This document shows, in pieces, positions 3,520-36,866 of a stretch of 40,956 nucleotides of DNA. Positions within the stretch are counted from its first letter, which is position 1. Every line of letters begins with the position of its first letter. The stretch spans positions 2,858 to 43,813 of the forward strand of contig JAOZUK010000021.1 of NCBI GenBank assembly GCA_029938715.1. The letters are read 5' to 3'. The notes beneath the pieces were generated by a model that ran no database searches, was not told the DNA's origin, and was given only the letters and a program-made list of their open reading frames with translations. The stretch comes from Bacteroidales bacterium. Lineage in GTDB: Bacteria; Bacteroidota; Bacteroidia; Bacteroidales; GCA-2748055. Position numbers and translations under genes: made by a program.

Positions 3520-3568
3520 CTCACTAACTCACTAACTCACTAACTCACTAACTCACTAACTCACTAAC
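3497..3568 (+). repeat. Nine perfect copies of an 8-bp tandem repeat (TCACTAAC)
   Basis: TCACTAAC is repeated nine times without a mismatch. The array begins inside the last codons of the upstream sulfatase and runs into the 74-base gap before the GH71/99-like gene. Because 8 is not a multiple of 3, every reading frame meets TAA within 24 bases, so the array works as a three-frame stop. Loss or gain of copies would change the distance to the next gene without changing the sulfatase stop, as long as about three copies remain. Slipped-strand length variation is expected for such arrays but cannot be seen in one sequence. Confidence 0.97.
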
Positions 3569-3593
3569 CTATTAACCATTAACATATCATATC

Positions 3594-6268: not shown

Positions 6269-6296
6269 CTATCAATTTGTGTTATTGAAAACGCCT

Positions 6297-9565: not shown

Positions 9566-9579
9566 TCAATCACATATGA

Positions 9580-9666
9580 ATAGCAGATTGTCAAAAGCCA
9601 AATATCCTCTTTATCTTGTCCGATGATCATAGCCAAACACTGAAAAAATTAAACCAACTAAACTAA
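9580..9666 (+). pseudogene. Fossil of a sulfatase N-terminus
   Basis: Between the fourth sulfatase and the first Gfo/Idh/MocA gene, one frame reads KPNILFILSDDHSQTL (9595-9642). This is the classic first strand and metal-binding Asp pair of an S1 sulfatase. A stop (9577-9579) precedes it and another (9664-9666) follows about eight codons later. A nearby ATG at 9576 is in a different frame and gives only 16 codons. No formylglycine motif remains. I read this as the residue of a sixth sulfatase gene lost by deletion. Chance similarity cannot be fully excluded for 16 residues, but the match and its location are telling. Confidence 0.7.
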
Positions 9667-9675
9667 ACATACCTT

Positions 9676-11139
9676 ATGAAACGTAGAAATTTTATTAAAA
9701 ATGTGAGTGCCTCCAGCCTTGCATTTACAGTAGTTCCAAGTTTTGCGGTATCTGGCCTGGGCCATACTGCTCCAAGTGATAAGTTAAACATTGCCGGAGT
9801 TGGTGTTGGAGTCGGGGGAAAAGGGAAAGTAAATCTGGAAAATATGGTGGAGCAAAACATCGTTGCCCTGTGCGATTGTGATTATGCTTACGCTGATTCT
9901 GTTTTTAAAACCTATCCCAAAGCCAAAAAGCACAAAGATTATCGCAAGATGCTCGAGAAACAAAAGGACATTGATGCGGTTGTCATTGCCACCCCAGATC
10001 ATACCCATGCAGCCATTGCTGCAGCGGCGATGGAACTGGGGAAAAATGTGTATCTGCAGAAACCTCTGACTCATTCTATCTGGGAGTCTCGATATCTCAC
10101 AGAGTTAGCCAGAAGAACAGGGGTGGTTACCCAGATGGGAAATGAGGGTCACTCAAACGATACAGTTTATGAGGTGGCCGAAGTAGTCCAGAGTGGATGT
10201 CTGGGCACAATCAGGGAAGCTCATGTATGGACCAACCGGCCCATATGGCGTCAAGGTATGCGAAAACCTTTGACGGAAGTATCCATCCCGAAAACACTGG
10301 ACTGGGATCTTTTCATTGGTCCGGCCAAAATGCGCAACTACAACCCTGAATATCACCCATGGATATGGCGTGGTTGGTGGGATTTTGGTACAGGAGCCCT
10401 GGGTGATATGGGGTGCCACCTGCTCGATGTTCCAAACTATGCCTTAAAACTGGGACAGCCTGTTGCTTTCCAGGCAAGTTCTTCCCTGGTCAACACAGAG
10501 AGTGCCCCGGTTGCAGCCAAAGTAAATTACAAGTTTCCTGCACGAAAAAATCTCCCGTATTGTGCCTTGCCTGAGCTGGAAATGACCTGGTACGATGGAG
10601 GTTTTATGCCTGCACGTCCCTACGACCTGCCCAATGATGCGCCCATGAATCCGGGTGGAGGTTTTATGTTGATCGGATCAGAAGGCACTTTAATTGCCAC
10701 GGCTTATGGAGGTAACTGGAAAACCTATAAAAATGGGAAGGAGTTTATACCGCAAACAAAAGTAGATTTAGGCAGAATTTCTGATCATCCGCTAGGAGGG
10801 GGAAGGCACGAAATGCACTTTGTGGAGTGCTGTAAAAGCGGGGATACACCAGCCTCAAATTTTGACTATGCAGGTCCCTTCAATGAAATGGTGGTGATGG
10901 GCAACCTGGCGGTCAGGTTACAATCACTAAAAAAGACCTTGTTGTGGGACAGCGAAAACATGAAAGTGACAAATATTGGTCCGGAGGAGAAGATCAGGAC
11001 AGCACAACTCTTCCCTTATTCCAGTGATGTGGTAAGTAAGGGGGTAGACGATGCATCCCGAAAATGGGTGGAGCAGAACGCATTGGAGATGAGCCAGGAG
11101 TGGATCAAACATGAGTATCAGAATGGATGGACCTTGTAA
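9676..11139 (+). CDS. Tat-exported Gfo/Idh/MocA family oxidoreductase
   Basis: The 487-residue protein opens with a twin-arginine signal (KRRNFIK), so it is folded and cofactor-loaded before export. A Rossmann segment starts at about residue 37 (LNIAGVGVGVGGKG), then come ATPDHTHA and the family's catalytic-Lys motif as LQKP (Lys129; QKP rather than EKP, common in exported members). The C-terminal sheet domain carries GDMGCHLLDVPNYALKLG. Family members oxidise or epimerise sugars with NAD(P). Exported ones may carry a tightly bound nucleotide and act on glycan ends in the periplasm. Location in a sulfatase/glycosidase operon supports a role on the released sugar. The reaction is not known. 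Confidence 0.88.
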   Translation: MKRRNFIKNVSASSLAFTVVPSFAVSGLGHTAPSDKLNIAGVGVGVGGKGKVNLENMVEQNIVALCDCDYAYADSVFKTYPKAKKHKDYRKMLEKQKDIDAVVIATPDHTHAAIAAAAMELGKNVYLQKPLTHSIWESRYLTELARRTGVVTQMGNEGHSNDTVYEVAEVVQSGCLGTIREAHVWTNRPIWRQGMRKPLTEVSIPKTLDWDLFIGPAKMRNYNPEYHPWIWRGWWDFGTGALGDMGCHLLDVPNYALKLGQPVAFQASSSLVNTESAPVAAKVNYKFPARKNLPYCALPELEMTWYDGGFMPARPYDLPNDAPMNPGGGFMLIGSEGTLIATAYGGNWKTYKNGKEFIPQTKVDLGRISDHPLGGGRHEMHFVECCKSGDTPASNFDYAGPFNEMVVMGNLAVRLQSLKKTLLWDSENMKVTNIGPEEKIRTAQLFPYSSDVVSKGVDDASRKWVEQNALEMSQEWIKHEYQNGWTL

Positions 11140-11223
11140 CGCACTGAGTGATAAAGTTGGCCAATATGTTTTATCTTTATAGGTAGACGTCAGAATAATT
11201 ATTTACTCTTAACACCAAAAATT

Positions 11224-12306
11224 ATGAGTTATTTTGACCGCAGAGGTTTTATCAGGACTTCAGTACTTGGGGGAGTTGGGATGACATTTCTTAAAAGTGT
11301 AAGCGCTGTTTCTCCCCTGTTGAATTTTGATAGTCGGCCTGCCCAGGTTTCAATCACAACGGGAGATGATCGGGCTGACCTGGTATTTCGCGCGCTTGTA
11401 CCTTTCGCAGATGAGATAAAACAAGCCATTGGAAACCGTCGTGTCGTTATTAAGCCGAATAATGTGCTTATTTATGTTCCACTGGCATGCACTCATGTCG
11501 ATACCCTGGAAGGGATTTTGGAGTTTCTTAAATCAATCAACAAATTACAAAATGTCATCATTGCCGAATCTTCGGCAAGTGGTTCGACACTTATCGGATT
11601 TGATAATTACGGGTATTACAATTTGATATCAAAATACCCTGTCAAACTTGTTGATCTCGATAATGAGCCATCTGAAAGTATGTATGTTTCTAATGAAAGA
11701 GATTTCAGACCCCATCTTGTAAAGGTGTCGAGTATAATCCTTGATCCGAATTCTTATAATATATCGGTTGCAAGAATGAAAACTCATACTGCCGTTGGCG
11801 CCACCCTGTCTCTCAAAAATCTCGTCTTCGGAGCGCCCGTTAAAGATCCTGGATTTACACTTTATCGTGAAGATATAAGGTTTTCCCCACTGGCACAAGA
11901 GTCGAAACCGGGTACAGTAAGCCATAAGAGACCAATACATGGTGGCGGATTTTATGCAGTTAATTATAATATAGCCATGCTGGCTCAAAAGTTACACCCG
12001 GACCTTGCAGTTATTGATGGTTTTGAGGGGATGGAAGGGAATGGCCCTACAAAGGGAACAGCCATTGACCACAGAGTTTGTGTTGCAAGTCAGGATTGGC
12101 TGGCTGCTGACCGGGTGGGAATTGAATTGATGGGAATAGATTTTTCTAAAATAGGATACCTAAATTATTGTGCTCAAATGGGTTTGGGAAATTCCGATTT
12201 AAATGAGATTGAAATTATTGGGGAAAATATAAATGAGCATATTATGGCCTATAAACTTCCGGACAATTTCGACGAGCAGACAGTATGGATGAACCCAATA
12301 TCTTAA
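11224..12306 (+). CDS. DUF362 family protein with Tat signal
   Basis: The 360-residue product starts with a twin-arginine signal (DRRGFIRTSVLGG). The body has DUF362 hallmarks: VVIKPNN near residue 75, ARMKTHTAVGATLSLKN about two thirds along, AVIDGFEGMEGNGPTKG, and ADRVGIELMGID near the end. Some DUF362 proteins are fused to ferredoxin-like iron-sulfur domains, but no Cys cluster of that kind is present here. The biochemical role of the family is not established. It lies between a Tat-exported oxidoreductase and a Tat-exported dehydratase-like enzyme, so a joint periplasmic task is likely. A second, larger DUF362 protein occurs at 23701-25641. Base composition of this gene looks more AT-rich than its sulfatase neighbours, by eye only. 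Confidence 0.82.
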   Translation: MSYFDRRGFIRTSVLGGVGMTFLKSVSAVSPLLNFDSRPAQVSITTGDDRADLVFRALVPFADEIKQAIGNRRVVIKPNNVLIYVPLACTHVDTLEGILEFLKSINKLQNVIIAESSASGSTLIGFDNYGYYNLISKYPVKLVDLDNEPSESMYVSNERDFRPHLVKVSSIILDPNSYNISVARMKTHTAVGATLSLKNLVFGAPVKDPGFTLYREDIRFSPLAQESKPGTVSHKRPIHGGGFYAVNYNIAMLAQKLHPDLAVIDGFEGMEGNGPTKGTAIDHRVCVASQDWLAADRVGIELMGIDFSKIGYLNYCAQMGLGNSDLNEIEIIGENINEHIMAYKLPDNFDEQTVWMNPIS

Positions 12307-12364
12307 AGTCCAGATTTAGATTTACAAGTAAATTACTGTTAAATAAACCTTTATCTATTTTGTG

Positions 12365-13501
12365 ATGAAAGAAAATCGTAGAGATTTTATCAAAAAAAGT
12401 TCAGCACTAACTGCACTGACTCTTACCGGAGTCGGGACTGCCGGAACCGCTATGATCGGTTGTACTGACCGTGTTGAAACTCCTTTTAAAAGCGTTGAAA
12501 AAACTCCACCTGTAAAATCTGGAATGAAGATTGCTTTACAGGCCAGGACTGAACCCACTGAAGAAGACATAGCGTTTATTCAACAAATGGGTCTCGATCA
12601 GGTTGTGCTCTGGACGGATGCCTCAAAAGCCAGTGCTGAATACTATGCAAGTCGTAAAAAAATTTATGGAGCTGCTGGGATCAATGTCTTTGGTTTTGGA
12701 AATAGAAGTGTCCATAACCAGGATTCAATTACACTCAACCTGCCAGGCAGAGATGAAAAAATAGAAGAGTATTTAAGCCATCTCAGGAATTTAGGCAAGG
12801 CAGATATTGCTTACACAACCTACGCACATATGGGAAATGGTATCTGGAATACCGGCAGGGAAACCACCCGTGGCGGTGCCAGTGCTAGAGCTTTAGATCT
12901 TGCTAAACTTGAAACAGATGGGGCCGGACATTGGGATGGAGAACTATACAAGACACCTTTAAGTCACGGCCGCGCGTATACTCAAGATGAGATTTGGGCC
13001 AATTATGAATATTTTATAAGGAAAGCTGCCCCTGTAGCAGAAAAAGAAGGTGTCCATATCGGGATACATCCCGATGATCCACCTGTACCAGAACTCGCCG
13101 GTATACCCCGTTGTATTTTCAGCAGTTTTGATGGCTATAAAAGGGCCTTGGAAATTGCCGACAGCCCAAATGTTGGTATATGTCTTTGTGTTGGCTGCTG
13201 GCTTGAGGGCGGTACTCTAATGGGCAAGGACGTGTTAGAAACGATTGACTATTTTGGCCGGAAAAAGAAAATATTTAAGGTTCATTTCCGAAATGTAGAC
13301 CAACCTTTACCACACTTTGTCGAATCCTTTCTCGATGACGGGTATGCTGATATGTACAAAATCTTAAAAGCCTTAAAAAAGGTAGATTTCAATGGAGTGT
13401 TTATTGCAGACCATATTCCCAGAATGGTAAACAATTCAGGAACCGCTTTTTCAGTAGGTTATATGAAAGGTTTACTTGAGCGCGTGATCGCTGAAGGCTA
13501 A
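12365..13501 (+). CDS. Mannonate dehydratase (UxuA)-like enzyme with Tat signal
   Basis: The 378-residue protein resembles UxuA, which dehydrates D-mannonate to 2-keto-3-deoxygluconate, normally in the cytoplasm. Seen here are IGIHPDDPPVPELAGIPR (residues 232-249), Cys275 in ICLCVG, His307 in KVHFRNV, and Asp349-His350 in FIADHIPRM. The Cys/His/Asp/His set matches the metal-ligand pattern of the family. Unusually, the N-terminus is a twin-arginine signal (ENRRDFIKK), followed by AMIGC (Cys33), which may be a lipidation site. It would then work outside the cytoplasm. A GTG at 12362 just before the ATG is an alternative start. Residues that set substrate choice may differ, so mannonate itself is not assured. 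Neighbours on both sides are also exported sugar enzymes. Confidence 0.75.
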   Translation: MKENRRDFIKKSSALTALTLTGVGTAGTAMIGCTDRVETPFKSVEKTPPVKSGMKIALQARTEPTEEDIAFIQQMGLDQVVLWTDASKASAEYYASRKKIYGAAGINVFGFGNRSVHNQDSITLNLPGRDEKIEEYLSHLRNLGKADIAYTTYAHMGNGIWNTGRETTRGGASARALDLAKLETDGAGHWDGELYKTPLSHGRAYTQDEIWANYEYFIRKAAPVAEKEGVHIGIHPDDPPVPELAGIPRCIFSSFDGYKRALEIADSPNVGICLCVGCWLEGGTLMGKDVLETIDYFGRKKKIFKVHFRNVDQPLPHFVESFLDDGYADMYKILKALKKVDFNGVFIADHIPRMVNNSGTAFSVGYMKGLLERVIAEG

Positions 13502-13518
13502 AGAATCAAAAAAATAAT

Positions 13519-15093
13519 ATGAGAATAAAACTACTGATTGCGTCGACCATCTGTCTGCTGTCTGTTGCGACTAGCGCACAACAGAAGAAGAACTTTTTGT
13601 TTATTATAACCGATCAACAGCGTTATGATGCCCTGAGCATGGCTGGGAATTCTGTATTGGAAACCCCCAATCTGGATAGACTGGCAAAGCAGGGAGTCTA
13701 CTTTGAGAATGCCTATTCGGCATGTGCCGTGTGTGCACCTGCCAGGTCCTCTATTCTTACAGGTTGTACGGTTGAAAGGACGGGGATGCGAAGAAACGAC
13801 CGGGCTTATTACTATGAAGATGAACCTGTGATGACCATGCCAACCTTTGATGAAATCCTCGCAGAGAATGGATATCACTGTGAGTATTATGGCAAATGGC
13901 ACAGTCAGACTTCTCACACTACTGTTTACCAGAATCCAAAACAAGCCTCGAAAAACGGGAAATCCGTTTTTGGGCCCGGCGGACAGAAGTTTGTTCATCT
14001 CGACTATCTGGATGAGCAGGTTCCAAAAAGAGAGCTGAAGCCGGGTGAACTTTACGATACCATGACCAAGAGGCCCTATGAAACCGACCCCATGGATAGC
14101 CACCATGGAATGACAGATGCCGAGCTAAAGGCACTTAAGGAAAGATTTCCCCAATGCGATATGCACGGGAAACTTCAAATACCCAAAGAGCATACCCTTA
14201 CTGCATTCCAGGCTAAAGAGACCATAGAGGCGATAGAGCGATTAAAGGACAAACCCTTTAGCATTACCTGTTCTTTTCACTTTCCCCATGCGCCCATGTT
14301 GCCGCCCGAACCTTATTACAGCATGTATCCGGCTGAAGAGATGAAACCTCCGGTCAGTCTGCAGGATGAAATGGACAACTCTCCCTATAAAAGTGCCAAT
14401 GGAAGAATGGGGCTGCCTGACTATTCTGATCCGGAAAAAATAAAATACATGGTATCCAATTATTATGGGCTGGTAAAGGAGATTGATGACTGGGTTGGTA
14501 AAATACTTGAGAAACTAGATGAGCTTGGCCTTGCTGAGAACACATTGGTTATATTTAGCAGCGACCATGGGGAGATGCTGGGTGCTCATGGACTGAGGGA
14601 GAAGAATGTATTCTACGAAGAGTCGGCACACATTCCTCTCTTAATGCGTTTTCCGGGTGAAATAGAGAGGAACACCAAAGTGGATGGATATGTTTCCCAT
14701 GTGGATCTGTTTGCCACCATACTCGATTATCTGAAAATCGAAGACTTTCCTTCGGATGGGGAGAGCCTGCGTGGATTGATTGAAGGAACAGATAAGGAGT
14801 ATGGAGAGTACGTGGTGACAGAGTGGAACTACAGGGGGGATATCTCACCCAACTATTTGGTAGTCAAGGATGGATGGAAATTAATGATCCCCTACTCAAA
14901 GAGTTCAGAGGTCATTAATGCCATGTATGATCTGACCAACGATCCTTACGAGATGAATAACCTTCTTGGTAAAAATCCTGAAAGAGCTCTATATGAGGAT
15001 AGGGCGGAGGAACTCCGTAAGTGCCTGCTGGAGTGGTTGGAGAAAAATGGATCGAAACACATTGATGGTGTGAAGGAGAGGAAATTAATCTAA
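13519..15093 (+). CDS. Sulfatase (S1 family, Cys-type), secreted
   Basis: This 524-residue protein has a Sec signal peptide probably cut after VATSA (residue 20). The N-terminal metal site reads IITDQQRYDAL (Asp32, Gln33). The formylglycine motif is VCAPAR (Cys72), with Ala where most of the window's sulfatases have Ser, and SILTGC following, which lacks the usual Arg of LTGR. SSDHGEMLGAHG gives the distal metal ligands, and EESAHIPLLMRFPG is a typical S1 stretch. It lies 17 bases after the UxuA-like gene and 64 bases before the GH106 gene, so it probably belongs to the same transcript. CxPAR motifs are known to be matured, so activity is expected. The substrate is unknown. Confidence 0.92.
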   Translation: MRIKLLIASTICLLSVATSAQQKKNFLFIITDQQRYDALSMAGNSVLETPNLDRLAKQGVYFENAYSACAVCAPARSSILTGCTVERTGMRRNDRAYYYEDEPVMTMPTFDEILAENGYHCEYYGKWHSQTSHTTVYQNPKQASKNGKSVFGPGGQKFVHLDYLDEQVPKRELKPGELYDTMTKRPYETDPMDSHHGMTDAELKALKERFPQCDMHGKLQIPKEHTLTAFQAKETIEAIERLKDKPFSITCSFHFPHAPMLPPEPYYSMYPAEEMKPPVSLQDEMDNSPYKSANGRMGLPDYSDPEKIKYMVSNYYGLVKEIDDWVGKILEKLDELGLAENTLVIFSSDHGEMLGAHGLREKNVFYEESAHIPLLMRFPGEIERNTKVDGYVSHVDLFATILDYLKIEDFPSDGESLRGLIEGTDKEYGEYVVTEWNYRGDISPNYLVVKDGWKLMIPYSKSSEVINAMYDLTNDPYEMNNLLGKNPERALYEDRAEELRKCLLEWLEKNGSKHIDGVKERKLI

Positions 15094-15157
15094 TTGAATA
15101 CTGGCCGAAAATGCGGAAAGCTGATGCCGATGAATAATAGAAACAAAAAGTGTTAAT

Positions 15158-18109
15158 ATGACCATATTTCGCTTCCGGTATGTAGTGCTCCTGCTGATCT
15201 CTATCTCATTGTTAAGTTGCAGGAATGAAAGACCTGAATCTCAGAGCTCAACTGAATTATACAACTATCTGAAAGAAAACTTCAAGTCCCCTCCGGCAGA
15301 GTATGGAGTAAACTGCTGGTGGTGGTGGCTAAATGGCAATGTAAGCAAAGAGGCAATTACCAGGGATCTGGAAGCCATGAAGTCAAGGAATTTTCAGGGA
15401 GCTATGATCTTCGATGCCGGAGGGCATAATCAAAGAGGCAATAAAGATATTCCATCAGGACCTTTGTTTGGTTCGGATGAGTGGAATAATCTCTTTGTTT
15501 TTGCCCTTGATGAGGCCAGAAGGCTGGGCTTGGAAATGGGTTTTAATATCCAGAGCGGGTGGAACCTGGGAGGTCCGAGGGTAACACCCGAGTATACGGC
15601 AAAGCAGATTACCTATTCGGAAACAAAAATTGCAGGGAACAATAATATTTCAGTAAAGCTAGAAATGCCAGAAACCAGAAAAGATTTTTACAAGGATATT
15701 GTGGTATTGGCATTTCCCGTTTCAGCCGGGAATGAAACCAACAAGCTGATTTCTGATCTGGATTTGAAACTTGGTTATCATGAGCTTGGTGGTTCAGCTC
15801 CCGATTGTCGGTTTATGCTTGGTAATGTACCTCGTAACCCTGAGAATTCTGGGGACAAAACCACCCATATTCTCAAAAGGGAAGAGATTTTGGATCTGAC
15901 TTCCATGGTGGATGGGGAAGGTGTCCTGAGCTGGAATGCACCTGAAGGAGATTGGAGCATCATGCGAATTGGTTATACATGTACGGATTCCCATGTTTCA
16001 ACCTCAAGTGGGGATTGGCAGGGAAGTGTACTTGACTATATGAGTCAGGAGGCTTTTGATTTTTACTGGAAAGATGTGGTAGACCCCATATTTAAAGCAG
16101 CCGGTGATCATGTGGGGACGACCCTTACTTATATGGAAACCGATAGCTGGGAATGTGGAGGAATGAACTGGACAGATAATTTTCCTGAAGAGTTCAAGCA
16201 ATATCGGGGTTATGACATTCTCTCCTATTTACCTGTGGTTGCAGGATATATAATTGAAGATATAAACAGATCCAATGCCTTCCTGGCCGACTTTAGAAAA
16301 ACCCTCGGTGACCTGGTAGCTTATAATCATTATGCCCGATTTTCTGAATATGCACATAAATACAACATGGGCATACAGCCTGAATCTGCTGGTCCTCATG
16401 CTGGTCCCATGGATGGGATAAAGAATTACGGATTCAGTGACATTGTAATGAGTGAATTCTGGTCCCCCTCACTTCACCGTCCCAAACCGGAGAATCGATT
16501 CTTCCTGAAACAGGCCTCCTCTGCAGCTCATATCTACGGCAAAAAGATTGTGGGAGCAGAATCGTTTACAACCATTGGGCCACAATGGAATGATGAATTG
16601 TGGCACGATCAGAAGTCAGCTTTTGACCATGAGATCTGTGCAGGACTAAACCGTCTGTATTTTCATACATTTACCTGTTCACCCACAGAAATGGGACTAC
16701 CCGGTCAGGAGTATTTTGCCGGCACTCACGTGAATCCTCAGGTTACCTGGTGGAGTCAATCGGGTGCCTTTATCGATTATATGCACAGAACACAACTGCT
16801 TGTACAGGAAGGTAAATTCGTCGCCGATGTTTTGTACTACTACGGAGACCATGTACCCAATGTATTCCCGTATAAACATTCCGATCCGGCCGGAGTTCTT
16901 CCTGGATTTGATTACGATGTTACAGATGAGACGATCTTCTTACGTCTAAAAGTAGAAGATGGTAAATTGAGAGTGCCCGGAGGAGTAGAGTATGGGATTT
17001 TGGTATTGCCCGACCATCAAGTGCTCTCGTTGGCTGTTTTGAAAAAAGTGGAAGAGCTATTGCAACAAGGAGCACATATAATTGGATATAAACCTGAAAG
17101 TTCGGTTAGCCTGGTTGGAGGAATAGAAAATAGAAATCAGTTTGGCGAACTGGCAGATAAAATTTGGGGAGACAATGTTTCTGAAAAAGGAGAATTGAAG
17201 CATGGCAAGGGAATGGTAGCCTGGGGCCTCTCTGCAAGAGACTATTTATTGTCAAAAAACATGCCTGCAGATTTCAATGTTGTTGAGAGTGATAGTAAAA
17301 CAGATTACGATTTCATTCATTACACCCTTGATGAGAGCGATCTCTATTTTGTCACCAATCAAACAATTGACAGACAAATAATCAAGGCTCAATTCCGTGT
17401 GTCAAGAAAGCAGCCCGAACTTTGGGATGCCTTAACAGGAGAAATTCGGGAAGCCTCAGCCTTCAGTCAAAAAAATGGACTAACAACCGTGCCCTTAACC
17501 TTAGAGCCTTATGGATCCACCATGGTGGTCTTTAACAGGCAAATTGATAAGAATATGCAGGGTGTAGCAGAGCGCAATTATGCTGAATATGAGGTAGTTA
17601 AAAACATTATCGGTAACTGGGAAGTAAACTTCGACCCCAAATGGGGTGGTCCCGCATCTGTTACATTCCCTGAGTTACTGGATTGGTCTACTCACCCCTA
17701 TGAAGGTATTAAGTATTACTCAGGCCCTGCAGTTTATAATAAGATCTTCCAAATAGACTTTGAACTACAAAAAGGGGTGTCATATTTCTTACAACTGGAA
17801 AGTGTAAAAGATGTTGGCATTGCAGAGGTTAAGATCAATGGACAAGATAAAGGTGTAACATGGACAAAACCATTTAGGCTGGACATAAGTGAAGAGCTGC
17901 AACAAGGAGAAAATAGACTTGAAATTAAAGTAGTGAATTCATGGTACAACAGGGCAGCCGGAGATCAAACATTTCCAAATAAAAAACAATTCACCAAAAC
18001 AAATATTAGCCTCAAACACGATTTCAGAGGACGCAGACTGGAAGAGATCCCTTTGGAACCATCAGGATTGTTAGGGCCAGTTACTATTCAGCAGGCTGTG
18101 AGAAAGTAA
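15158..18109 (+). CDS. GH106-like alpha-L-rhamnosidase, lipoprotein
   Basis: The 983-residue product has a lipoprotein signal (SLLSC, Cys21). After it come YGVNCWWWWLNGNVSKEAI and TRDLEAMKSRNFQGAMIFD, the N-terminal signature of GH106. METDSWECGGMNWTDNFP plus the following EEFKQYRGYD about one third along is also characteristic. The C-terminal 200 residues include a galactose-binding-like jelly roll (VKINGQDKGVTWTKPFRLD and ENRLEIKVVNSWYNRAA). GH106 enzymes remove terminal alpha-L-rhamnose with inversion of configuration, and characterised ones act on complex pectins and sulfated algal glycans. Its length agrees with the family. Together with the GH78 gene at the right edge it points to a rhamnose-containing substrate. 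It lies 64 bases after a sulfatase gene. Confidence 0.85.
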   Translation: MTIFRFRYVVLLLISISLLSCRNERPESQSSTELYNYLKENFKSPPAEYGVNCWWWWLNGNVSKEAITRDLEAMKSRNFQGAMIFDAGGHNQRGNKDIPSGPLFGSDEWNNLFVFALDEARRLGLEMGFNIQSGWNLGGPRVTPEYTAKQITYSETKIAGNNNISVKLEMPETRKDFYKDIVVLAFPVSAGNETNKLISDLDLKLGYHELGGSAPDCRFMLGNVPRNPENSGDKTTHILKREEILDLTSMVDGEGVLSWNAPEGDWSIMRIGYTCTDSHVSTSSGDWQGSVLDYMSQEAFDFYWKDVVDPIFKAAGDHVGTTLTYMETDSWECGGMNWTDNFPEEFKQYRGYDILSYLPVVAGYIIEDINRSNAFLADFRKTLGDLVAYNHYARFSEYAHKYNMGIQPESAGPHAGPMDGIKNYGFSDIVMSEFWSPSLHRPKPENRFFLKQASSAAHIYGKKIVGAESFTTIGPQWNDELWHDQKSAFDHEICAGLNRLYFHTFTCSPTEMGLPGQEYFAGTHVNPQVTWWSQSGAFIDYMHRTQLLVQEGKFVADVLYYYGDHVPNVFPYKHSDPAGVLPGFDYDVTDETIFLRLKVEDGKLRVPGGVEYGILVLPDHQVLSLAVLKKVEELLQQGAHIIGYKPESSVSLVGGIENRNQFGELADKIWGDNVSEKGELKHGKGMVAWGLSARDYLLSKNMPADFNVVESDSKTDYDFIHYTLDESDLYFVTNQTIDRQIIKAQFRVSRKQPELWDALTGEIREASAFSQKNGLTTVPLTLEPYGSTMVVFNRQIDKNMQGVAERNYAEYEVVKNIIGNWEVNFDPKWGGPASVTFPELLDWSTHPYEGIKYYSGPAVYNKIFQIDFELQKGVSYFLQLESVKDVGIAEVKINGQDKGVTWTKPFRLDISEELQQGENRLEIKVVNSWYNRAAGDQTFPNKKQFTKTNISLKHDFRGRRLEEIPLEPSGLLGPVTIQQAVRK

Positions 18110-18188
18110 ACATGAAATATATGAAGCTGCTGAATACGTTATGAGGGCTTAATGAAAGCACAATAGAAAAACTGATAAATGCAGAATT

Positions 18189-20114
18189 ATGATAAAATCC
18201 GGTTTCGTAACTCTATTATCTCTTTTAATGTGTCTCAATATCTCAGCGAAAGAGTATCATGTAGCCAAAAATGGAAGCGATCAATATTCAGGAACCCGGG
18301 AAAAGCCTTTTCTAACCATTCAGGCGGCGGCAAATATGGCCATGGCCGGTGATGTGGTTACGGTACATAAAGGAGTCTACAGAGAACGGGTGGATCCGAA
18401 AAATAGCGGTCTCAATGACCTGCAAAGGATTATCTACCGGGCTGCAGAAGGAGAAAAGGTAGTGATCAAGGGCTCCGAAATAATTCAGGATTGGGAGAAG
18501 ATTGATAAATCGGTTTGGAAGGCAGTGGTACCAAACTCCCTTTTCGGGGATTACAATCCTTACACAGTATTGGTTGAAGGAGACTGGTTTAATCCTGAAG
18601 GCACTGCGCATCACACCGGAGAGGTCTATATCAATGGAAGCTCTCTGTTTGAGCAGAACTCCATGGAAGGAGTCAAAAGTCCGAAGGAGTATGCCAGGGC
18701 AGTAGATATATCTGCTTCAATATATACCTGGTATGCAGTAGTAGATGCTGAGTATACAACCCTATGGGCTAATTTTCAAGAGTTCAATCCCAATAGAGAG
18801 GTGGTGGAAATCAATGTTCGGGAGGCCTGTTTCTATCCCGGCAGAACCGGAGTCAACTACATTACAGTAAGGGGTTTTGAGATGTCCCAGGCGGCCACAC
18901 AGTGGGCTGCACCCACCGCTGAACAGATCGGACTCATTGGGACCCACTGGAGCAGGGGATGGATTATTGAGAATAACATTGTAAGCAATTCAAAAAGCGT
19001 GGGAATTGCACTGGGCAAGGACAGGACTACCGGACAAAATGTATGGATGAATAATCCACAGAAAGATGGGGCTACCCACTACAACGAAGTTATATTCAGA
19101 GCATTGGAAGCAGGGTGGTCCAAAGAGAAGATCGGCTCTCATATGGTAAGGAACAATGAAATATTTTCCTGTGGTCAGGCCGGGGTTGTGGGGAGCCTGG
19201 GAGCTGTTTTTAGCAAGGTGTACAACAATCACATCTATGATATTTACACCAAGCGAACCTATTCGGGCGCTGAGATGGCAGGAATAAAAATTCATGGTTC
19301 CATTGATATGCTTATTGAGAACAACAGGATTCACAACGCCTTTATTGGAATCTGGCTCGATTGGATGGCCCAGGGAACCAGGGTAACCAGAAATATTCTG
19401 TATGATAATTCACACCACGATTTTTTTTCCGAGGTAAATCACGGTCCCTATCTGGTGGATAACAATCTCTTCCTGACCCGGGAGGGGCTTTCCATTCAGG
19501 ATGCCTCAGAAGGTGGTGCATTTGTACACAATCTGTTTGCAGGTAAAACAAAATCATTTAATGTACCGAACCGTGTAACACCCTATCACCATCCACACTC
19601 CACCGGGGTGGTCTGTTTAAGGAATATCAGGGGAGGCGATAATCGCTTCTTCAACAACATTTTTATCAGGACCATGGATTTTGCCGATGAAAGAGTTACC
19701 GACAGGGCCGGACAGAACATTTCCATTGGATACGGGTTAAATGGCTACGACCAGTCTGAGTATGAAAGCATCACAGATGGCAACCTATTCTACAACGGAG
19801 CCAAACCCTATAAAAACGAAGTGAATTATTTAGAAATACCAGGATTTGAACCCACCATTGAGATTGAAGAGGGGGTGGATGGGGTGTTTTTAATACTGAA
19901 TTTTGACAGCTCTCCAGATAAGCTTAAAACAGAATTGGTTGACACCCGAAGACTTGGTTCCACCATTGTGTCAGAGGCCATCTTTGAGAGCTTCGACAGT
20001 ACTCCCTATCTCATTAACAGGGATTACTTTGGAAACTCCAGAGATGAAACCCATCCTGGGACAGGCCCATTTGAAACCCTGGAAGTTGGAAAAAGCAGAA
20101 TAAAAATCTGGTAA
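18189..20114 (+). CDS. GH120-like beta-xylosidase, right-handed beta-helix
   Basis: The 641-residue product has a Sec signal (LNISAKEYHVAKNGSD). It matches my memory of GH120 enzymes such as Thermoanaerobacterium XylC: AAEGEKVVIKGSE, AGWSKEKIGSHMVRNNEI, IGIWLDWMAQGTRVTRN and NHGPYLVDNN. In GH120 the nucleophile is the Asp of LDW and the acid/base the Glu of EVxHGPY, and both are present (Asp391, Glu415), with a spacing of 24 rather than about 23 residues. The repeated Asn-rich turns (ENNIVSN, RNNEIFS, YNNHIYD, ENNRIHN) fit a parallel beta-helix. It should release beta-linked xylose, which agrees with a xylose-containing sulfated glycan. Other beta-helix families (GH141, polysaccharide lyases) fit less well. 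Confidence 0.85.
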   Translation: MIKSGFVTLLSLLMCLNISAKEYHVAKNGSDQYSGTREKPFLTIQAAANMAMAGDVVTVHKGVYRERVDPKNSGLNDLQRIIYRAAEGEKVVIKGSEIIQDWEKIDKSVWKAVVPNSLFGDYNPYTVLVEGDWFNPEGTAHHTGEVYINGSSLFEQNSMEGVKSPKEYARAVDISASIYTWYAVVDAEYTTLWANFQEFNPNREVVEINVREACFYPGRTGVNYITVRGFEMSQAATQWAAPTAEQIGLIGTHWSRGWIIENNIVSNSKSVGIALGKDRTTGQNVWMNNPQKDGATHYNEVIFRALEAGWSKEKIGSHMVRNNEIFSCGQAGVVGSLGAVFSKVYNNHIYDIYTKRTYSGAEMAGIKIHGSIDMLIENNRIHNAFIGIWLDWMAQGTRVTRNILYDNSHHDFFSEVNHGPYLVDNNLFLTREGLSIQDASEGGAFVHNLFAGKTKSFNVPNRVTPYHHPHSTGVVCLRNIRGGDNRFFNNIFIRTMDFADERVTDRAGQNISIGYGLNGYDQSEYESITDGNLFYNGAKPYKNEVNYLEIPGFEPTIEIEEGVDGVFLILNFDSSPDKLKTELVDTRRLGSTIVSEAIFESFDSTPYLINRDYFGNSRDETHPGTGPFETLEVGKSRIKIW

Positions 20115-20128
20115 TAAATTTTAATGAT

Positions 20129-21964
20129 ATGACAATTAGACTCAATAGAGCTTCCTTCTTTGGATTACTGTTCTTCATCATTGCCTTTACCACGGAAGCA
20201 CAGGAAGCTTTCTCGTTTGTTCAGTTGTGTGATCCCCAATTGGGGATGGGTGGTTACGAGCATGATGTAGAATCATTCCAAATGGCCGTAGATCAAATCA
20301 ATGAACTGAATCCCGAGTTTGTGGTTATTTGCGGTGATCTTGTCCATCATGCAAATGATAGCAGTTATGCCGATTTTTTAAGGATCAGAGAGGGGTTCAA
20401 TATGCCCAGTTACCTGGCTCCGGGTAACCACGATGTTGGGATGACACCCAATGATACCACCCTGGCATATTACAGGACAACCGTAGGGGAGGACTATTAT
20501 GATTTTCTGCATAAGGGATACGCATTTGTAGTCACCAATTCCCAGTTATGGAAGGCAGATGTGGAGGGAGAGTCGGAGAAGCATGATCAGTGGTTCAAAG
20601 AGACACTCACCAAACATAACAAGAACAAGCCAACCTTGATTGTCATAGGCCACATTCCTCTCTATATTGAGCAAACCGATGAAGAAGAGAACTATTCTAA
20701 TTTTCCTCTGGACAAAAGGAGCGAACTCTTAGAGTTATTTGAACAGCATGAAGTGCTGGCTTACCTGACAGGTCATACACACAGTACCATTATTCACAGG
20801 TATGATAACACCCAGCTGGTAAGTGGCGAAACAACCAGTAAAAATTTTGATAACAGACCCATGGGATTCAGGCTCTGGGAAGTTTCACCGGATACAATAA
20901 AGCATCATTTAGTTGCCCTTCAGCCAAGCATTGGAGAGATTCTCTTAATCGACACCACATTGAACGAAATTCAGAATCTCTTCCTCAATAAGCAGGCCGA
21001 GGCGCTGCTGGGTCAGGTAAATCAGGTCCTTGTCAACTATCTGCCAGATTGGCCGGAGCCGCCAGCAAGAAAAAGTGCATTATTGCTTCTGGATGGTGTC
21101 CTGCATGATGTATATGCTCCACAGAGACCTCCTGTTCAGTCTTTTCTAAAGGATCGGCTGAGGATGGCAGCTGAGGATATTGAGCAGACAGAGGTATCTG
21201 AAGGTGCCCGTATATGGAAATTGTACAACCATGGGTTCATCGTTCGTACCCGGTCAGTGACTATCGGTTTTGACCTGGTAAGCATAAAATCTGCAGGGAT
21301 TGATGGATTTTGCATAGATGATGATGTAATGCAGAGGTTTGTTAATCAATGTGATGCGCTTTTTATAAGCCATTATCATGACGATCATGCTGAGGAGTGG
21401 GTGGCTCAATCTTTTATTGATCAGGGAAAGCCGGTGGTAGCTCCACCCGACGTTTGGAATGACAGATCTATCCACGCAGAAATGACGCATCTGGACAGAG
21501 AGCCACATACCCTGCAGGCACTTTCTGTGCAGAATGAGCAAAAGGAGTTGCAGGTGGTGGTTTATCCAGGTCACCAGGGAGCCGATATTGAGAACAATGT
21601 AACGCTTGTTATTACCCCTGAGGGACTTTCATTTTCACAAATGGGTGACCAATCCAATGACCAGGACTTTGAATGGATCGATGAGGTAGGTAATCATCAC
21701 CTGGTGGATGTCCTCATGCCCAATTGCTGGACCACAGATATAGCGAGGGTGGCAAAAGGTTTTAATCCGGCAATTATTATAACCGGACATGAAAATGAGA
21801 TGGGCCACACCATTGATCACCGTGAGCCCAACTGGCTGACTTACCAGCGGAAGGAGGGATCAGACAGGTTTGGGGGAAGCGTGGATGTGGGATACCACCA
21901 CCCTTTGATACTGATGACATGGGGGGAGTCTTACCACTATAGAAGAGCGAAGTTTCCAAGATAA
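20129..21964 (+). CDS. Metallophosphoesterase and metallo-beta-lactamase-fold fusion protein, secreted
   Basis: The 611-residue protein has a Sec signal cut near FTTEAQ (residue 25). Residues about 28-270 form a calcineurin-like metallophosphoesterase: QLCDPQLG (Asp35), ICGDLVHH (Asp70), PGNHD (Asn100, His101), IGHIPLY and LTGHTHST. After a linker, residues about 370-605 form a metallo-beta-lactamase fold: FISHYHDDHAEEW (His415, His417, Asp419, His420), VYPGHQGAD and ITGHENEMGHT. Both metal centres look complete. Targets could include phosphate esters, phosphodiesters or lactones; the sequence does not tell. It starts 14 bases after the GH120 gene and is followed by a Gfo/Idh/MocA gene, so it belongs to the glycan operon. 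Calling either half inactive would not be supported. Confidence 0.85.
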   Translation: MTIRLNRASFFGLLFFIIAFTTEAQEAFSFVQLCDPQLGMGGYEHDVESFQMAVDQINELNPEFVVICGDLVHHANDSSYADFLRIREGFNMPSYLAPGNHDVGMTPNDTTLAYYRTTVGEDYYDFLHKGYAFVVTNSQLWKADVEGESEKHDQWFKETLTKHNKNKPTLIVIGHIPLYIEQTDEEENYSNFPLDKRSELLELFEQHEVLAYLTGHTHSTIIHRYDNTQLVSGETTSKNFDNRPMGFRLWEVSPDTIKHHLVALQPSIGEILLIDTTLNEIQNLFLNKQAEALLGQVNQVLVNYLPDWPEPPARKSALLLLDGVLHDVYAPQRPPVQSFLKDRLRMAAEDIEQTEVSEGARIWKLYNHGFIVRTRSVTIGFDLVSIKSAGIDGFCIDDDVMQRFVNQCDALFISHYHDDHAEEWVAQSFIDQGKPVVAPPDVWNDRSIHAEMTHLDREPHTLQALSVQNEQKELQVVVYPGHQGADIENNVTLVITPEGLSFSQMGDQSNDQDFEWIDEVGNHHLVDVLMPNCWTTDIARVAKGFNPAIIITGHENEMGHTIDHREPNWLTYQRKEGSDRFGGSVDVGYHHPLILMTWGESYHYRRAKFPR

Positions 21965-22089
21965 ATAGACGTGTTAATTTAAAAAAATGAGAATTACAGT
22001 AATTTACCCCTGGTATCGAAATGAATTAACTAAATTTCAGGATTAACAGTGCACATCCTGATTATTAACTGCACCAAATATCTTTCAAC

Positions 22090-33366: not shown

Positions 33367-35742
33367 ATGGAACTGACAGAGGAGATAAGGAAACTGGAAC
33401 GAACTGAGCGGATATCTTCCCTGAAGGAAAAGACATTCACCTTCCCGAGATACATGTCCGTGGAGCAGGCCAGGATCATCACAAGAGTCTACCAGGAGAA
33501 TCCAGCCCTTACAATACCCATTAAAAGGGCGACAGCCCTTGCCAGGTCGCTGACTGAAATGCCCCTTTCTGTTGATCCGGAAGAGTTGATTGTTGGAAAC
33601 AGAACCCCGGGAATAAGGGCTGGGGTGGTTTTTCCTGAAGCAGGGATCTCCTGGATCACTCACGAGCTGGATACCATTCATTCCAGACCTCAGGATCCTT
33701 TCCGGGTTCGTGAAGAGGATAAAAAGATCTTCCTGGATGAGATAGAACCTTATTGGTCGGGTAATACCATGGAGGACCATATCTATGGGGATTGGGGAGA
33801 AGAGCTAGGGGCCATTGAAAAGGTGGTGAAGATCAACCAGAAGGATCATGCCCAGGGACACATCTGTCCCCATGTGGAGAAATGGCTGACCTTCGGACCA
33901 GCCGGCCTGCTAAAGATAGCCGGGGATGCATTTCAGGATGCCGCGGACCACCAAAAAGAGTTTTACAAGGGTGTGTGTATCGCCCAGGAGGGTGCCATCA
34001 GGTTTATCCGCCGCTATGCCCGGTTGGCAGGTTCTCTTGCAGAGAAAGAGAAGGAATCTGCTACCAGGGAGAACCTGGAGGAGATCCGGAAAACATGTCT
34101 TCACCTGTCGGAGAGTCCGCCACGGACTTTCAGGGAGGCACTTCAGTCCACCTGGTTCCTGTTTGTTATCCTTCACATGGAATCCAATGCCTCCTCTTTT
34201 TCCCCGGGGAGGATGGACCAGTACCTTTACCCTTATCTGGTGAAGGACCTGGAGGAAGGTATCCTTGATATGGAGCATGCCATTGAGCTGATCGACGCGT
34301 TGTACATTAAGTTCAACCAGATTGTTTACATGAGAAACGCTCACAGTGCGAAATTCTTTGCCGGGTTTCCCATCGGATTCAATGTGGCCATTGGAGGGCA
34401 GACCCGCGACGGCAAGGATGCCACTAACCTGCTCTCATACCTGCTGCTGAAAGCCCAGGACCATATTGGCTTACCACAGCCCAACCTCACAGCCCGTTTG
34501 CACAAGGGTTCCCCAGATGATTTTGTAGGTGAGTGCACCCGGGTCATTGGCCTGGGAAGTGGGATGCCACAGATTATGAATGATCAGAGCATTATCCCCT
34601 CATTGGAATCGGCGGGGATTGCCCATGAAGACGCCATGGACTATGCGGTGGTAGGATGTGTGGAACTGAGCTGCCAGGGCAATTACCTTGGCTGGAGCGA
34701 TGCCGCCATGTTCAACCTGGTGAAAGTGCTGGAGCTAACCCTTAATAATGGCAAATGTTTCATCACGGGAAAGCAATTGGGGCTAAGGACCGGAACACTG
34801 GCGGACTATACCTCATTTGAGGATCTGGAGATGGCATTGGGTCGACAGATCGACCATTTTACAGAGAGAATGATCAGATCTTGCGAAGTGGTTGAGAAAG
34901 CACACCAGGACCACATGCCTTCACCCTTTCTTTCAGCTGTGGTAAACGATTGTTTGACGCGGGGCACTGATGTGACTGCGGGAGGGGCAGTCTATAATTA
35001 TTCGGGGATACAGGCCATACAGGTGGCCAATGTGGCAGATAGCCTGGCAGTGTTAAAGACACTTGTTTTTGAGAAGGAAATATTTGATAAACAGGAATTT
35101 CTGCATGTGCTTCAGAATAATTTTGAGGGTGAGGAAGCCCTCCGTATCCGGTGCCTTGAAGAGGTCCCCAAATACGGCAACGATGTGGCCTGGGTGGATG
35201 AACTGGGAGCCAAATGGATAGACTATTTTCACCGGAAGATCACCTCCTTCAGGAATTACAGGGGAGGGGATTTTCTCCTTGGACTTTATACGGTTTCCGC
35301 TCATGTTCCCATGGGGCAGAATGTGGGAGCCACACCCGATGGAAGGCTGGAAGCCACACCACTGGCCGATGGCGGAATCTCGCCCATGTACGGGCAGGAC
35401 TTGCATGGTCCCACAGCGGTTCTGGGTTCAGTTTCCCGTATGCCTTCCATTCTGGCTGGGAACGGAACTTTGCTGAATATGAAATTCCTTCCTTCTTTCT
35501 TTCATTCAAAAAAGGATCGGCAGAAATTTTCTTCTTTCCTGAAAGCATTTGTGCGCATGCCCATTCATCACATACAGTTCAATGTGGTGACCCGGGAAGA
35601 TCTGCTGGAGGCAAAGAAACATCCGGAAAAATACCTCGGTTTAACCATACGTGTGGCTGGTTATACAGCCTATTTTGTGGAACTGGCGGGGGATTTACAG
35701 GATGAGATCATTGAACGGACCTTTCATGGTGAGGTGCTTTGA
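33367..35742 (+). CDS. Glycyl-radical enzyme (pyruvate formate-lyase-like)
   Basis: The 791-residue cytoplasmic protein has both essential sites of the family: the thiyl Cys in VVGCVELS (Cys431, with Glu433) and the glycyl-radical loop RVAGYTAYF (Gly765), 26 residues from the C-terminus. The N-terminal fold shows the usual PF02901 pattern (ELIVGNRTPG, FREALQSTWFLF). The GCVE type, rather than the Cys-Cys pair of true pyruvate formate-lyase, is that of dehydratases and other eliminases such as CutC, glycerol dehydratase and HypD. The substrate cannot be read off. No radical-SAM activating enzyme lies in the window, so one must be supplied from elsewhere. It is coupled to a ROK kinase (TTGA overlap), so a sugar or sugar phosphate is a fair guess. 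Its requirement for anoxia implies anaerobic growth. Confidence 0.9.
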   Translation: MELTEEIRKLERTERISSLKEKTFTFPRYMSVEQARIITRVYQENPALTIPIKRATALARSLTEMPLSVDPEELIVGNRTPGIRAGVVFPEAGISWITHELDTIHSRPQDPFRVREEDKKIFLDEIEPYWSGNTMEDHIYGDWGEELGAIEKVVKINQKDHAQGHICPHVEKWLTFGPAGLLKIAGDAFQDAADHQKEFYKGVCIAQEGAIRFIRRYARLAGSLAEKEKESATRENLEEIRKTCLHLSESPPRTFREALQSTWFLFVILHMESNASSFSPGRMDQYLYPYLVKDLEEGILDMEHAIELIDALYIKFNQIVYMRNAHSAKFFAGFPIGFNVAIGGQTRDGKDATNLLSYLLLKAQDHIGLPQPNLTARLHKGSPDDFVGECTRVIGLGSGMPQIMNDQSIIPSLESAGIAHEDAMDYAVVGCVELSCQGNYLGWSDAAMFNLVKVLELTLNNGKCFITGKQLGLRTGTLADYTSFEDLEMALGRQIDHFTERMIRSCEVVEKAHQDHMPSPFLSAVVNDCLTRGTDVTAGGAVYNYSGIQAIQVANVADSLAVLKTLVFEKEIFDKQEFLHVLQNNFEGEEALRIRCLEEVPKYGNDVAWVDELGAKWIDYFHRKITSFRNYRGGDFLLGLYTVSAHVPMGQNVGATPDGRLEATPLADGGISPMYGQDLHGPTAVLGSVSRMPSILAGNGTLLNMKFLPSFFHSKKDRQKFSSFLKAFVRMPIHHIQFNVVTREDLLEAKKHPEKYLGLTIRVAGYTAYFVELAGDLQDEIIERTFHGEVL

Positions 35743-36866
35743 TCCAGACTAAAGAATCATATGAGAAAGATGGCCGGGTGGTCATGACTCTGGATGCAGG
35801 GGGAACCAACCTGGTGTTCAGTGCCATGAGGGGAGCCCGTGAAATGGTGGATCCTTTTGTGCTTCCGTGTATTCCGGATGATACGGACTTTACCCTCAGA
35901 ACCATAGAGCGGGGATTCAGAGAGGTCGCTTCCCGTGTGAATGAGGAAATACACGCCATCAGTTTTGCTTTTCCCGGGCCAGCCAATTATGAATTGGGAA
36001 TTATTGGTGACCTTCCCAACCTGCCCGCATTTCGAGGGGGAGTGGCACTTGGCCCTTTTTTGCAAGAGGTGTTCCAGTTGCCGGTATATATTAATAACGA
36101 TGCCAACCTCTATGTGCTGGGAGAGTATGTGTTCGGATTTCTTCCTGAAGTAAACCGGGCCCTGAGGCAAAGGGGGAGTGAGAAGGAATACCGGAACCTG
36201 GTGGGCATTACGCTGGGGAGCGGTTTTGGTTGCGGGATCATGATCAACGGGCTTTTAAATACCGGTGACAATTGCAATGGGGGAGAACTCTGGCTAATGC
36301 GTAACAAATTGTTTCCGGATCTTTGCGCAGATGCCTCCATTGGGCAGGAAAAAATCAGGCGTTTTTATGCCGAATTTGCGGGTGTAAGCCTCCATGAGGT
36401 TCCTGGGTCTGAGGGGGTGTTCAGAATTGCAAAGGGGGAGGTTGAAGGAAATAGAGAAGCTGCCAGACGAACATTTACCACCGTAGGTGAGATCATCGGA
36501 GATGCCCTGGCCAATACCTCGGTACTGGTCGACGGCCTGATCGTGATCGGTGGAGGACTAAGCGGAGCCCATGAATTTCTCATGCCGGCGATTATGAAGG
36601 AACTTAACGGAACCATCGAACATCTTGACGGAGTACTGCATTCCCGCATTGCCCAGATTGCTTACTTCCTGGATCAGGAAAAGGAGATGGAACTATTCCT
36701 TGAGGGTGATCCCAGGACCATTCCTGTTCCCTTCACGGATAAGATGATCGCGTATGATGCCAGTCCCAGAATCGGTCTTGGCATTTCCAGGCTTGGAGCC
36801 AGCAGGGCAATTGCACTGGGGGCATATGTATTTGCGGTGTCAAGTGATGACCCACTATTCTTTTAG
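35739..36866 (+). CDS. ROK-family sugar kinase-like protein
   Basis: The 375-residue product has the ATP-binding LDAGGTN near residues 18-24, FAFPGPANYELGIIGDLPNL, the INNDANLYVLGEY acceptor stretch (catalytic Asp in NND), ITLGSGFGCGI and GGELWLMRNK. I place the start at the TTG at 35739, which overlaps the previous stop as TTGA and is preceded by GGTGAGGTG. The ATG at 35784 would leave almost no residues before the first strand. Helix-turn-helix residues are absent, so it is a kinase type rather than a repressor. The zinc-binding Cys motif of many ROK kinases (CxCGxxGC) is not evident, as in a divergent subgroup. Its coupling to the glycyl-radical enzyme suggests phosphorylation of that enzyme's substrate or product. 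The last 12 bases overlap the convergent PHP gene. Confidence 0.83.
   Translation: MIQTKESYEKDGRVVMTLDAGGTNLVFSAMRGAREMVDPFVLPCIPDDTDFTLRTIERGFREVASRVNEEIHAISFAFPGPANYELGIIGDLPNLPAFRGGVALGPFLQEVFQLPVYINNDANLYVLGEYVFGFLPEVNRALRQRGSEKEYRNLVGITLGSGFGCGIMINGLLNTGDNCNGGELWLMRNKLFPDLCADASIGQEKIRRFYAEFAGVSLHEVPGSEGVFRIAKGEVEGNREAARRTFTTVGEIIGDALANTSVLVDGLIVIGGGLSGAHEFLMPAIMKELNGTIEHLDGVLHSRIAQIAYFLDQEKEMELFLEGDPRTIPVPFTDKMIAYDASPRIGLGISRLGASRAIALGAYVFAVSSDDPLFF

Follow-up and report, generated by a model that had tools for sequence, protein, structure and literature searches.

A glycyl-radical enzyme joined to a ROK kinase in a Bacteroidales genome: a candidate kinase-fed entry into radical anhydrohexitol breakdown

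What does a glycyl-radical enzyme (GRE) act on, and what switches it on, when its gene runs directly into that of a sugar kinase and no activase gene stands nearby? This question is raised by a gene pair in a stretch of 40,956 nucleotides from a Bacteroidales bacterium (GenBank assembly GCA_029938715.1, contig JAOZUK010000021.1, here C503), which we refer to as the window. The genome that holds it (G000) is 6.2 Mb in size, with an estimated completeness of 97.36% and contamination of 4.3%. A first-pass annotation had placed a GRE and a ROK-family kinase at positions 33367 to 36866, which proved exact, and had considered an anhydro-sugar or its phosphate a plausible substrate. Our analysis favours that suggestion, as the GRE groups with PflD and its relatives carry sugar-phosphate genes. 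We lean towards the view that the pair forms an entry, independent of the phosphotransferase system (PTS), to the radical breakdown of anhydrohexitols, in which the ROK kinase phosphorylates the sugar and a PflD-like GRE opens the ring.

The known chemistry is recent. According to section 5.1 of a review (PMC12441222), YbiW and PflD convert the 6-phosphates of 1,5-anhydroglucitol and 1,5-anhydromannitol (AG6P and AM6P) to 1-deoxyfructose-6-phosphate, after phosphorylation by the PTS. The titles of the structures 8id0 and 8id7 agree with the review on the ligands, that of 8id0 naming PflD of Streptococcus dysgalactiae with AM6P bound.

Placement of the enzyme beside PflD

The product of the first gene is clearly a GRE, a kind of enzyme sensitive to oxygen, with Pfam scores of 672.7 bits for PFL-like and 95.6 bits for Gly_radical. 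Its active-site loop, VVGCVELS, carries Cys431 and Glu433, and its radical loop, RVAGY, carries Gly765. Pyruvate formate-lyase has an adjacent Cys-Cys active site. The window enzyme has a GCVE site instead, and scores 159 bits on the pyruvate formate-lyase model TIGR01255 against a cut-off of 994. The earlier assignment to the eliminase or dehydratase type stands.

Relatives were gathered by a pattern scan of contigs from 84,980 species, each represented by a single genome, which yielded 46 loci and is a sample, not a census. The loci belong to Bacillota (25), Bacteroidota (14), Spirochaetota (4), Kiritimatiellota (1) and Planctomycetota (1), with one unassigned, and the clade thus spans five phyla. 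Rows for L034, L052, L053, L054, L057 and L059 (broken or partial frames) were left out, together with ten duplicates; xL082 was omitted from a 63-row tree, and xL064, xL078, xL083 and xL084 were also omitted from the conservation count. Later GRE trees were thinned to 33 and 34 rows. The PflD-like GRE frames of L034, L053, L057 and L059 seem broken or split, by assembly error or as pseudogenes. The gene looks rare in Bacteroidota, because whole-genome searches matched only 2 of 61 genomes at E 1e-200 or better (G000 and one of the same genus), and a phylum sample gave a single match at E 1e-180 in 395 genomes, G000 itself.

In the 34-row tree, which holds 17 clade rows, support is 98/95 for PflD plus the clade and 100/100 for the clade by itself, while diol-dehydratase-type, YbiW-type, HypD-type and other GREs fall outside. 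A 33-row quick tree joins PflD to the clade at 99; the 63-row quick tree, with its distant and very long branches, does so at only 81. The nearest row to the window GRE is L015 (73% identity), and L015, L043 and L018 are nearest in the 63-row tree. At 237 window positions, at least 95% of the 42 clade rows agree; PflD matches the window at 183 of these, and YbiW and the HypD-type GRE of contig C830 at 135 each. Among sequences of known structure, the top matches are E. coli PflD (8yjo, 632 bits) and 8id0 (615 bits); diol and glycerol dehydratases (551 to 567 bits) and YbiW (484 bits) score lower. Clustering with a characterised non-sugar GRE would have spoken against a sugar substrate; the GRE groups with PflD. 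A pathway for another substrate beside the closest relatives would have done the same, and none appeared among the neighbours of L015, L018 and L043, which are annotated in part only.

Most pocket motifs point the same way, with positions taken from alignments and not from structure coordinates. We take His281-Ser282 and Asp447 to be the pocket residues of Clostridium butyricum glycerol dehydratase, numbered by counting from an alignment. At these positions the window GRE has Ser276-Ser277 and Asp445, and PflD likewise has Ser-Ser and Asp. The His-Ser-Asp triad of propanediol and glycerol dehydratases is therefore incomplete in the window enzyme, with Ser276 in place of His and the Ser and Asp kept, and the His281 position is Ser in all 42 clade rows. 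In YbiW the first two are His-Ser, and position 445 is not Asp (Cys in one alignment; gap placement varies); the window GRE lacks this YbiW-type signature, lying outside the YbiW clade, without His-Ser at 276-277 and with Asp445. Phe331, Gly333, Phe334, Pro335 and Gly337 are identical in 42/42 clade rows and in PflD, and the stretch FAGFPxG(F/Y) occurs in no other GRE type among those compared. SSxS, FAGFPxG and Asp445 are thus common to the window GRE and PflD, whereas W443-S444 differ. A one-residue insertion, DGGxSP, was also tried as a PflD signature and dropped, as it is present in another GRE group (L045b/L039b). Members of that group, with the motifs GQNGSS and GSTNAGMFN, occur near the window-type GRE in three loci (L045 16531-18933, L039b, L055b).

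Linked kinases and the proposed route

The kinase gene is coupled to the GRE gene as the first-pass annotation had described: its TTG start and the GRE stop share four bases, TTGA. Two bases separate this TTG from the purine-rich GGTGAGGTG upstream, a possible ribosome-binding site for the kinase (Table 1). Both reading frames are intact and run in the same direction. The upstream neighbour, an S9-type hydrolase, and the downstream neighbour, a CehA/McbA-type metallohydrolase, lie on the opposite strand, and the pair appears to be an operon of two genes standing alone.

Table 1. Coordinates of the gene pair and its junction in the window
Feature	Position	Strand	Details
Glycyl-radical enzyme, sister lineage of PflD	33367..35742	+	791 aa; Cys431, Glu433, Gly765; motifs SSFS (276-279), FAGFPIGF (331-338), D445
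ROK-family sugar kinase	35739..36866	+	375 aa; TTG start; sister of Pontiella's GRE-linked ROK
Purine-rich GGTGAGGTG (35728-35736), CT, then TTGA overlap (35739-35742)	35728..35742	+	

The kinase scores 68.8 bits on the Pfam model ROK (PF00480). Its D19, G21, T23, N120 and D121 are conserved across 11 aligned ROKs, and include the DxGGT motif and the catalytic Asp. In the 34-row ROK tree it is sister (99/100) to the ROK of Pontiella sulfatireligans, and four Pontiella paralogues and eleven ROKs from Bacteroidota fall outside this pair. The Pontiella locus (L023) has the order GRE, activase, ROK, and its GRE branches off just outside those of Bacteroidota. Because Pontiella has this arrangement with a ROK sister to that of the window, GRE and ROK seem to travel together.

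Kinases recur beside this GRE clade. Neighbour genes were counted by tblastn at set distances from the GRE in 47 loci, the 46 relatives and the window. A ROK kinase is near the GRE in eight (the window, L023, L027, L030, L031, L036, L046 and L049), although those of L036 and L046 are weak matches (35% and 30%) and the L046 alignment held a stop. In six other loci (L026, L032, L039, L045, L048, L055) there is a ROK-like protein of 590 to 614 amino acids. It has no Pfam match, judged from the L045 member (13242-15014), the one scanned. Profile comparison assigns the 590-aa protein to ROK-fold kinases (probability 71, E 3.8e-5), and its model (pLDDT 78) finds glucokinase 2qm1 (E 1.6e-10) and the ROK glucokinase 3vgk (1.8e-10) as best Foldseek matches; these proteins are a probable new family of sugar kinases. 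In five of their six loci an Rpe/AlsE-type epimerase lies alongside, and in some an ABC transporter gene. Homologues of FrwC and FrwB, the PTS of the E. coli pflD operon, occur within 6 kb in six loci (L029, L034, L050, L058, L059, L060), and a fructose-6-phosphate aldolase (Fsa) within 3.5 kb in 12, that of L042 being a 73-aa fragment. A GFO/IDH oxidoreductase is near the GRE in 3/47. Taken together, a sugar kinase is found in 14/47 loci, the Frw PTS in 6/47 and both in none, a weak mutual exclusion across the 47 loci. Among control loci of other GRE types, such a kinase stood in none of 12 (13 loci, 12 of which had no more than about 1.5 kb of flank). A ROK is present in both of two YbiW-type loci and also beside the second GRE of the clade in Pontiella (L130).

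The PTS content of the genomes agrees with this pattern. We take FrwC to be a member of the PTS EIIC family. No EIIC gene was found in G000, Pontiella (G458), Mariniphaga (G463) or Alkalispirochaeta (G461); one was found in G465 (L030), the fifth genome with a ROK-linked GRE. The genomes G474 (L058) and G475 (L060), whose GREs are Frw-linked, hold 8 and 7. A search of G000 for an HPr gene also found none. Across the seven genomes examined, the PTS is mostly absent where a ROK is linked to the GRE, with no EIIC found in four of the five such genomes.

From these features a route can be drawn. With ATP as donor, the ROK kinase would attach a phosphate to O6 of a 1,5-anhydrohexitol, for which 1,5-anhydromannitol is the most likely candidate. 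One of the three activases of the genome would install the Gly765 radical in trans, which would generate a thiyl radical at Cys431 that abstracts hydrogen from the anhydrohexitol-6-phosphate. Cleavage of the C-O bond would then open the ring and yield a 1-deoxyketose-6-phosphate, in the manner of PflD acting on AM6P. We infer the substrate, the reaction, the choice of activase and the order of the steps; the mechanism would follow from homology and established GRE chemistry. A phosphorylated 1,5-anhydrohexitol is a likely substrate of the GRE, and for AM6P in particular we judge the chances to be even.

A manno-configured substrate is in keeping with the surroundings of related kinases. Ten neighbours in the loci of the ROK subfamily were put to Pfam. 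Of 16 loci of the subfamily, four have GH92 mannosidases nearby (L116, L123, L125 and L129, the L129 ROK being a contig-end fragment) and L115 has a GH2 mannosidase-like gene, neighbours that suggest substrates of manno configuration, such as 1,5-anhydromannitol, which is 1-deoxymannopyranose. By contrast, the kinase next to the YbiW orthologue of G000 (contig C595) comes close to the ROK glucokinase model, with 229.9 bits against a cut-off of 260. We infer a pairing of the manno-type GRE with a mannose-like ROK and of the gluco-type GRE with a glucokinase-like ROK.

Several points weigh against this route. PflD is separated from the clade by a long branch, with 42% identity to the window GRE, and the NCBIfam PflD model PRK09983 gives 745.6 against a cut-off of 1109. 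Because that cut-off is not reached, we call the GRE a member of a sister lineage with a probable PflD-like action, not a PflD. The GRE model (pLDDT 89.7) has GREs as its best fold matches, and the ranking puts propanediol dehydratase 5i2g first (Z 49.5), 1.4 above PflD (48.1 and 48.0), with 9rcp (48.7) counted as tied. The whole-fold comparison thus does not favour PflD, and it is the trees and the pocket residues on which we base the placement. A diol or polyol dehydratase of the propanediol or glycerol type, with an unrelated kinase adjacent by chance, would suit the fold ranking, the sequence scores of such enzymes only about 65 to 81 bits below the PflD match, and the stretch GWxDAAxFN, which is shared with diol-dehydratase-type rows. 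However, the tree joining PflD to the clade at 98/95 excludes those rows, the clade has Ser throughout at the His281 position, and several kinds of kinase recur beside the clade, with the ROK co-inherited, so that we hold this explanation to be very improbable.

The pocket itself also differs from PflD in one stretch, which reads LGWSDAA in the clade and YGLHDIA in E. coli PflD. Ser444-Asp445 is kept in 41/42 clade rows and Trp443 in 38, with Phe in the other 4, where E. coli PflD has Leu-His-Asp. Together with the long branch, this change from LHD to WSD may signify a substrate differing from that of PflD. The clade could cleave another 6-phospho-1,5-anhydrohexitol, such as a C3 or C4 epimer, with a 1-deoxyketose-6-phosphate that needs an epimerase before glycolysis; an Rpe/AlsE-type epimerase is indeed near the GRE in 9/47 loci. 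The remaining pocket motifs, however, are identical to those of PflD, and the neighbours Fsa and Frw PTS are shared with the E. coli ybiW and pflD loci respectively. A different stereoisomer is thus unlikely in our estimate.

Further points concern the surroundings of the pair. In 27 of the 47 loci neither a kinase nor the Frw PTS was found within the distances used, some contigs being short. The usual next enzyme, an aldolase of the TAL_FSA family (Fsa), was not found in G000; the next step is either missing or carried out by another enzyme, and is the weakest link of the pathway. A class II aldolase on contig C240 adjoins a different GRE. ROK kinases typically carry a CxCGxxGC zinc motif; the window ROK lacks it, as do all 16 further full-length rows of the subfamily. 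This loss and that of the ExGH histidine characterise the subfamily and do not point to a new substrate. Much of the remaining window is a polysaccharide-degradation island, which also has a GH78-type rhamnosidase and two GFO/IDH oxidoreductases. By its gene content, it is predicted to break down a sulfated rhamnose-containing polysaccharide; such genes offer no obvious source of anhydrohexitols and do not indicate the GRE substrate. At 2101-22000 it holds five sulfatases, a GH106-type rhamnosidase, a GH120-type protein, and UxuA-type and GFO/IDH proteins.

Other loci of the clade have neighbours of their own. In two spirochaetes (L030 8014-9992, L031 1325-3270) an Rpe-like epimerase and a GFO/IDH gene precede GRE, activase and ROK, and may point to an upstream anhydrosugar in oxidised or epimeric form; L049 also carries the GFO/IDH gene. 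An assignment of the spirochaete GFO/IDH protein as 1,5-anhydrofructose reductase was weakened, as this match gave 86 bits against 270 for 4h3v and 223 for 6a3f, which we take to be levoglucosan dehydrogenase. On the NCBIfam levoglucosan dehydrogenase model the protein scores 254, below the cut-off of 650. A large PQQ-type beta-propeller protein is encoded upstream of the GRE in L023 (7253-9976), L018 (2123-4807) and L043 (1-2412), directly so in L023 and L018; the Pfam match comes from L023, and L018 and L043 were assigned by clustering. The window has no such gene upstream of its GRE.

Activation of the enzyme

The lack of an activase, also reported by the first-pass annotation, was borne out. 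Radical-SAM matches in the genome number 22 (E up to 0.001), none of them on C503, and no activase remnant was found in the window, the best of the weak tblastn matches of activases having E = 0.027. A contig end does not account for the absence, since GRE and ROK directly adjoin and the pair has opposite-strand genes on either side. The search recommended elsewhere in the genome was productive: G000 encodes four GREs, that of the window and those on C830, C595 and C240, and three activases above the family cut-off, each adjoining one of the other three. Because these activases sit beside other GREs, the window GRE is quite likely activated in trans, unless the assembly misses an activase.

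We take the C830 GRE to belong to the HypD clade, judging by its sequence. On C595 the order is activase, YbiW orthologue (57%) and ROK (L002 519-4855), then a DeoR regulator (L012 18763-19509). The C240 GRE (L004/L014) is distant, with 36% identity to a Pontiella GRE in L131, and is accompanied by an activase and a class II aldolase-family gene; the L131 locus has an activase and no class II aldolase match. A YbiW-type GRE is also present in at least 8 of 13 genomes (12 Bacillota, 1 Treponema), with 30 fetched loci classified, and in 2 of 11 other genomes (G000 and G456).

An adjacent activase is the rule in the clade, being found in 41 of the 46 relative loci, some of which are cut by contig ends. 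L015, L018, L043 and L056 have none, with about 550 bases after the GRE in L015 and about 1.9 kb in L018, and in L016 (3913-4309) a decayed activase, with N- and C-terminal pieces and the middle missing, directly follows an intact PflD-like GRE. Such losses would suit a decaying relic, in which the activase is gone and the unactivated GRE is becoming a pseudogene, and L016 and the four other relatives can be read in that way. Against this, the window GRE has an intact frame and every catalytic residue, the L015 GRE frame (73%) is intact with no activase in the bases after it, and the genomes of L015, L016, L018, L043 and L056 each hold at least one activase above the cut-off. A relic therefore appears highly improbable, and activation in trans remains our preferred explanation.

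Which activase would serve is a matter for a more tentative proposal. In G455 (L015), G457 (L018) and G459 (L043), the sole activase found above the cut-off adjoins a GRE 66-82% identical to that of C830. It is possible, though doubtful, that the Bacteroidota branch of PflD-like GREs permanently lost its own activase and is switched on by that of HypD (trans-4-hydroxyproline dehydratase), the overlap in the window being an operon closed after the loss. If so, anhydrosugar breakdown would depend on the radical starter of an amino-acid pathway. Monophyly of the four activase-less Bacteroidota rows is neither supported nor rejected by an AU test (p-AU 0.576). As to the order of events, the simplest history is an ancestral GRE-activase-ROK operon that lost its activase on the way to the window; other histories are possible, because L015, L018 and L043 have neither activase nor ROK beside the GRE. 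A stop counted within the Pontiella activase match is most simply the end of the gene, the alignment being stop-free to 13190 and the ROK starting at 13193.

Comparison with known anhydrohexitol lyases

If the route is correct, the radical breakdown of 1,5-anhydrohexitols extends from PTS users to PTS-free bacteria, with kinases recruited repeatedly. The window would also be a defined case for whether one GRE activase serves several GREs. The linked kinases would provide a route to assigning GRE substrates, and possibly a handle on the removal of 1,5-anhydroglucitol, whose 6-phosphate is described in the review as toxic in two human neutropenias (PMC12441222).

The pair is best read as a recently described radical pathway in a modified form, fed by a kinase and lacking an activase of its own. 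With PflD, the window GRE shares its clade, the SSxS, FAGFPxG and Asp pocket motifs and the GCVE site, and some of its relatives neighbour the Frw PTS and Fsa as PflD does. It differs in having WSD for LHD in the pocket and 42% identity; its locus has a kinase and neither the Frw PTS nor its own activase, and no Fsa was found in its genome. YbiW resembles it in opening an anhydrohexitol-6-phosphate, and the YbiW orthologue of G000 is also followed by a ROK. However, YbiW lies in a separate clade at 37% identity, with His in place of Ser276 and no Asp at 445, and its orthologue in G000, unlike the window GRE, has its own activase. For the kinase, the only match of known structure at E 1e-10 or better is 3mcp (BDI_1628, annotated as a glucokinase; 385 bits). 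Its length of 366 aa is similar to the 375 aa of the window ROK, which stands in a separate subclade together with the GRE-linked ROK of Pontiella.

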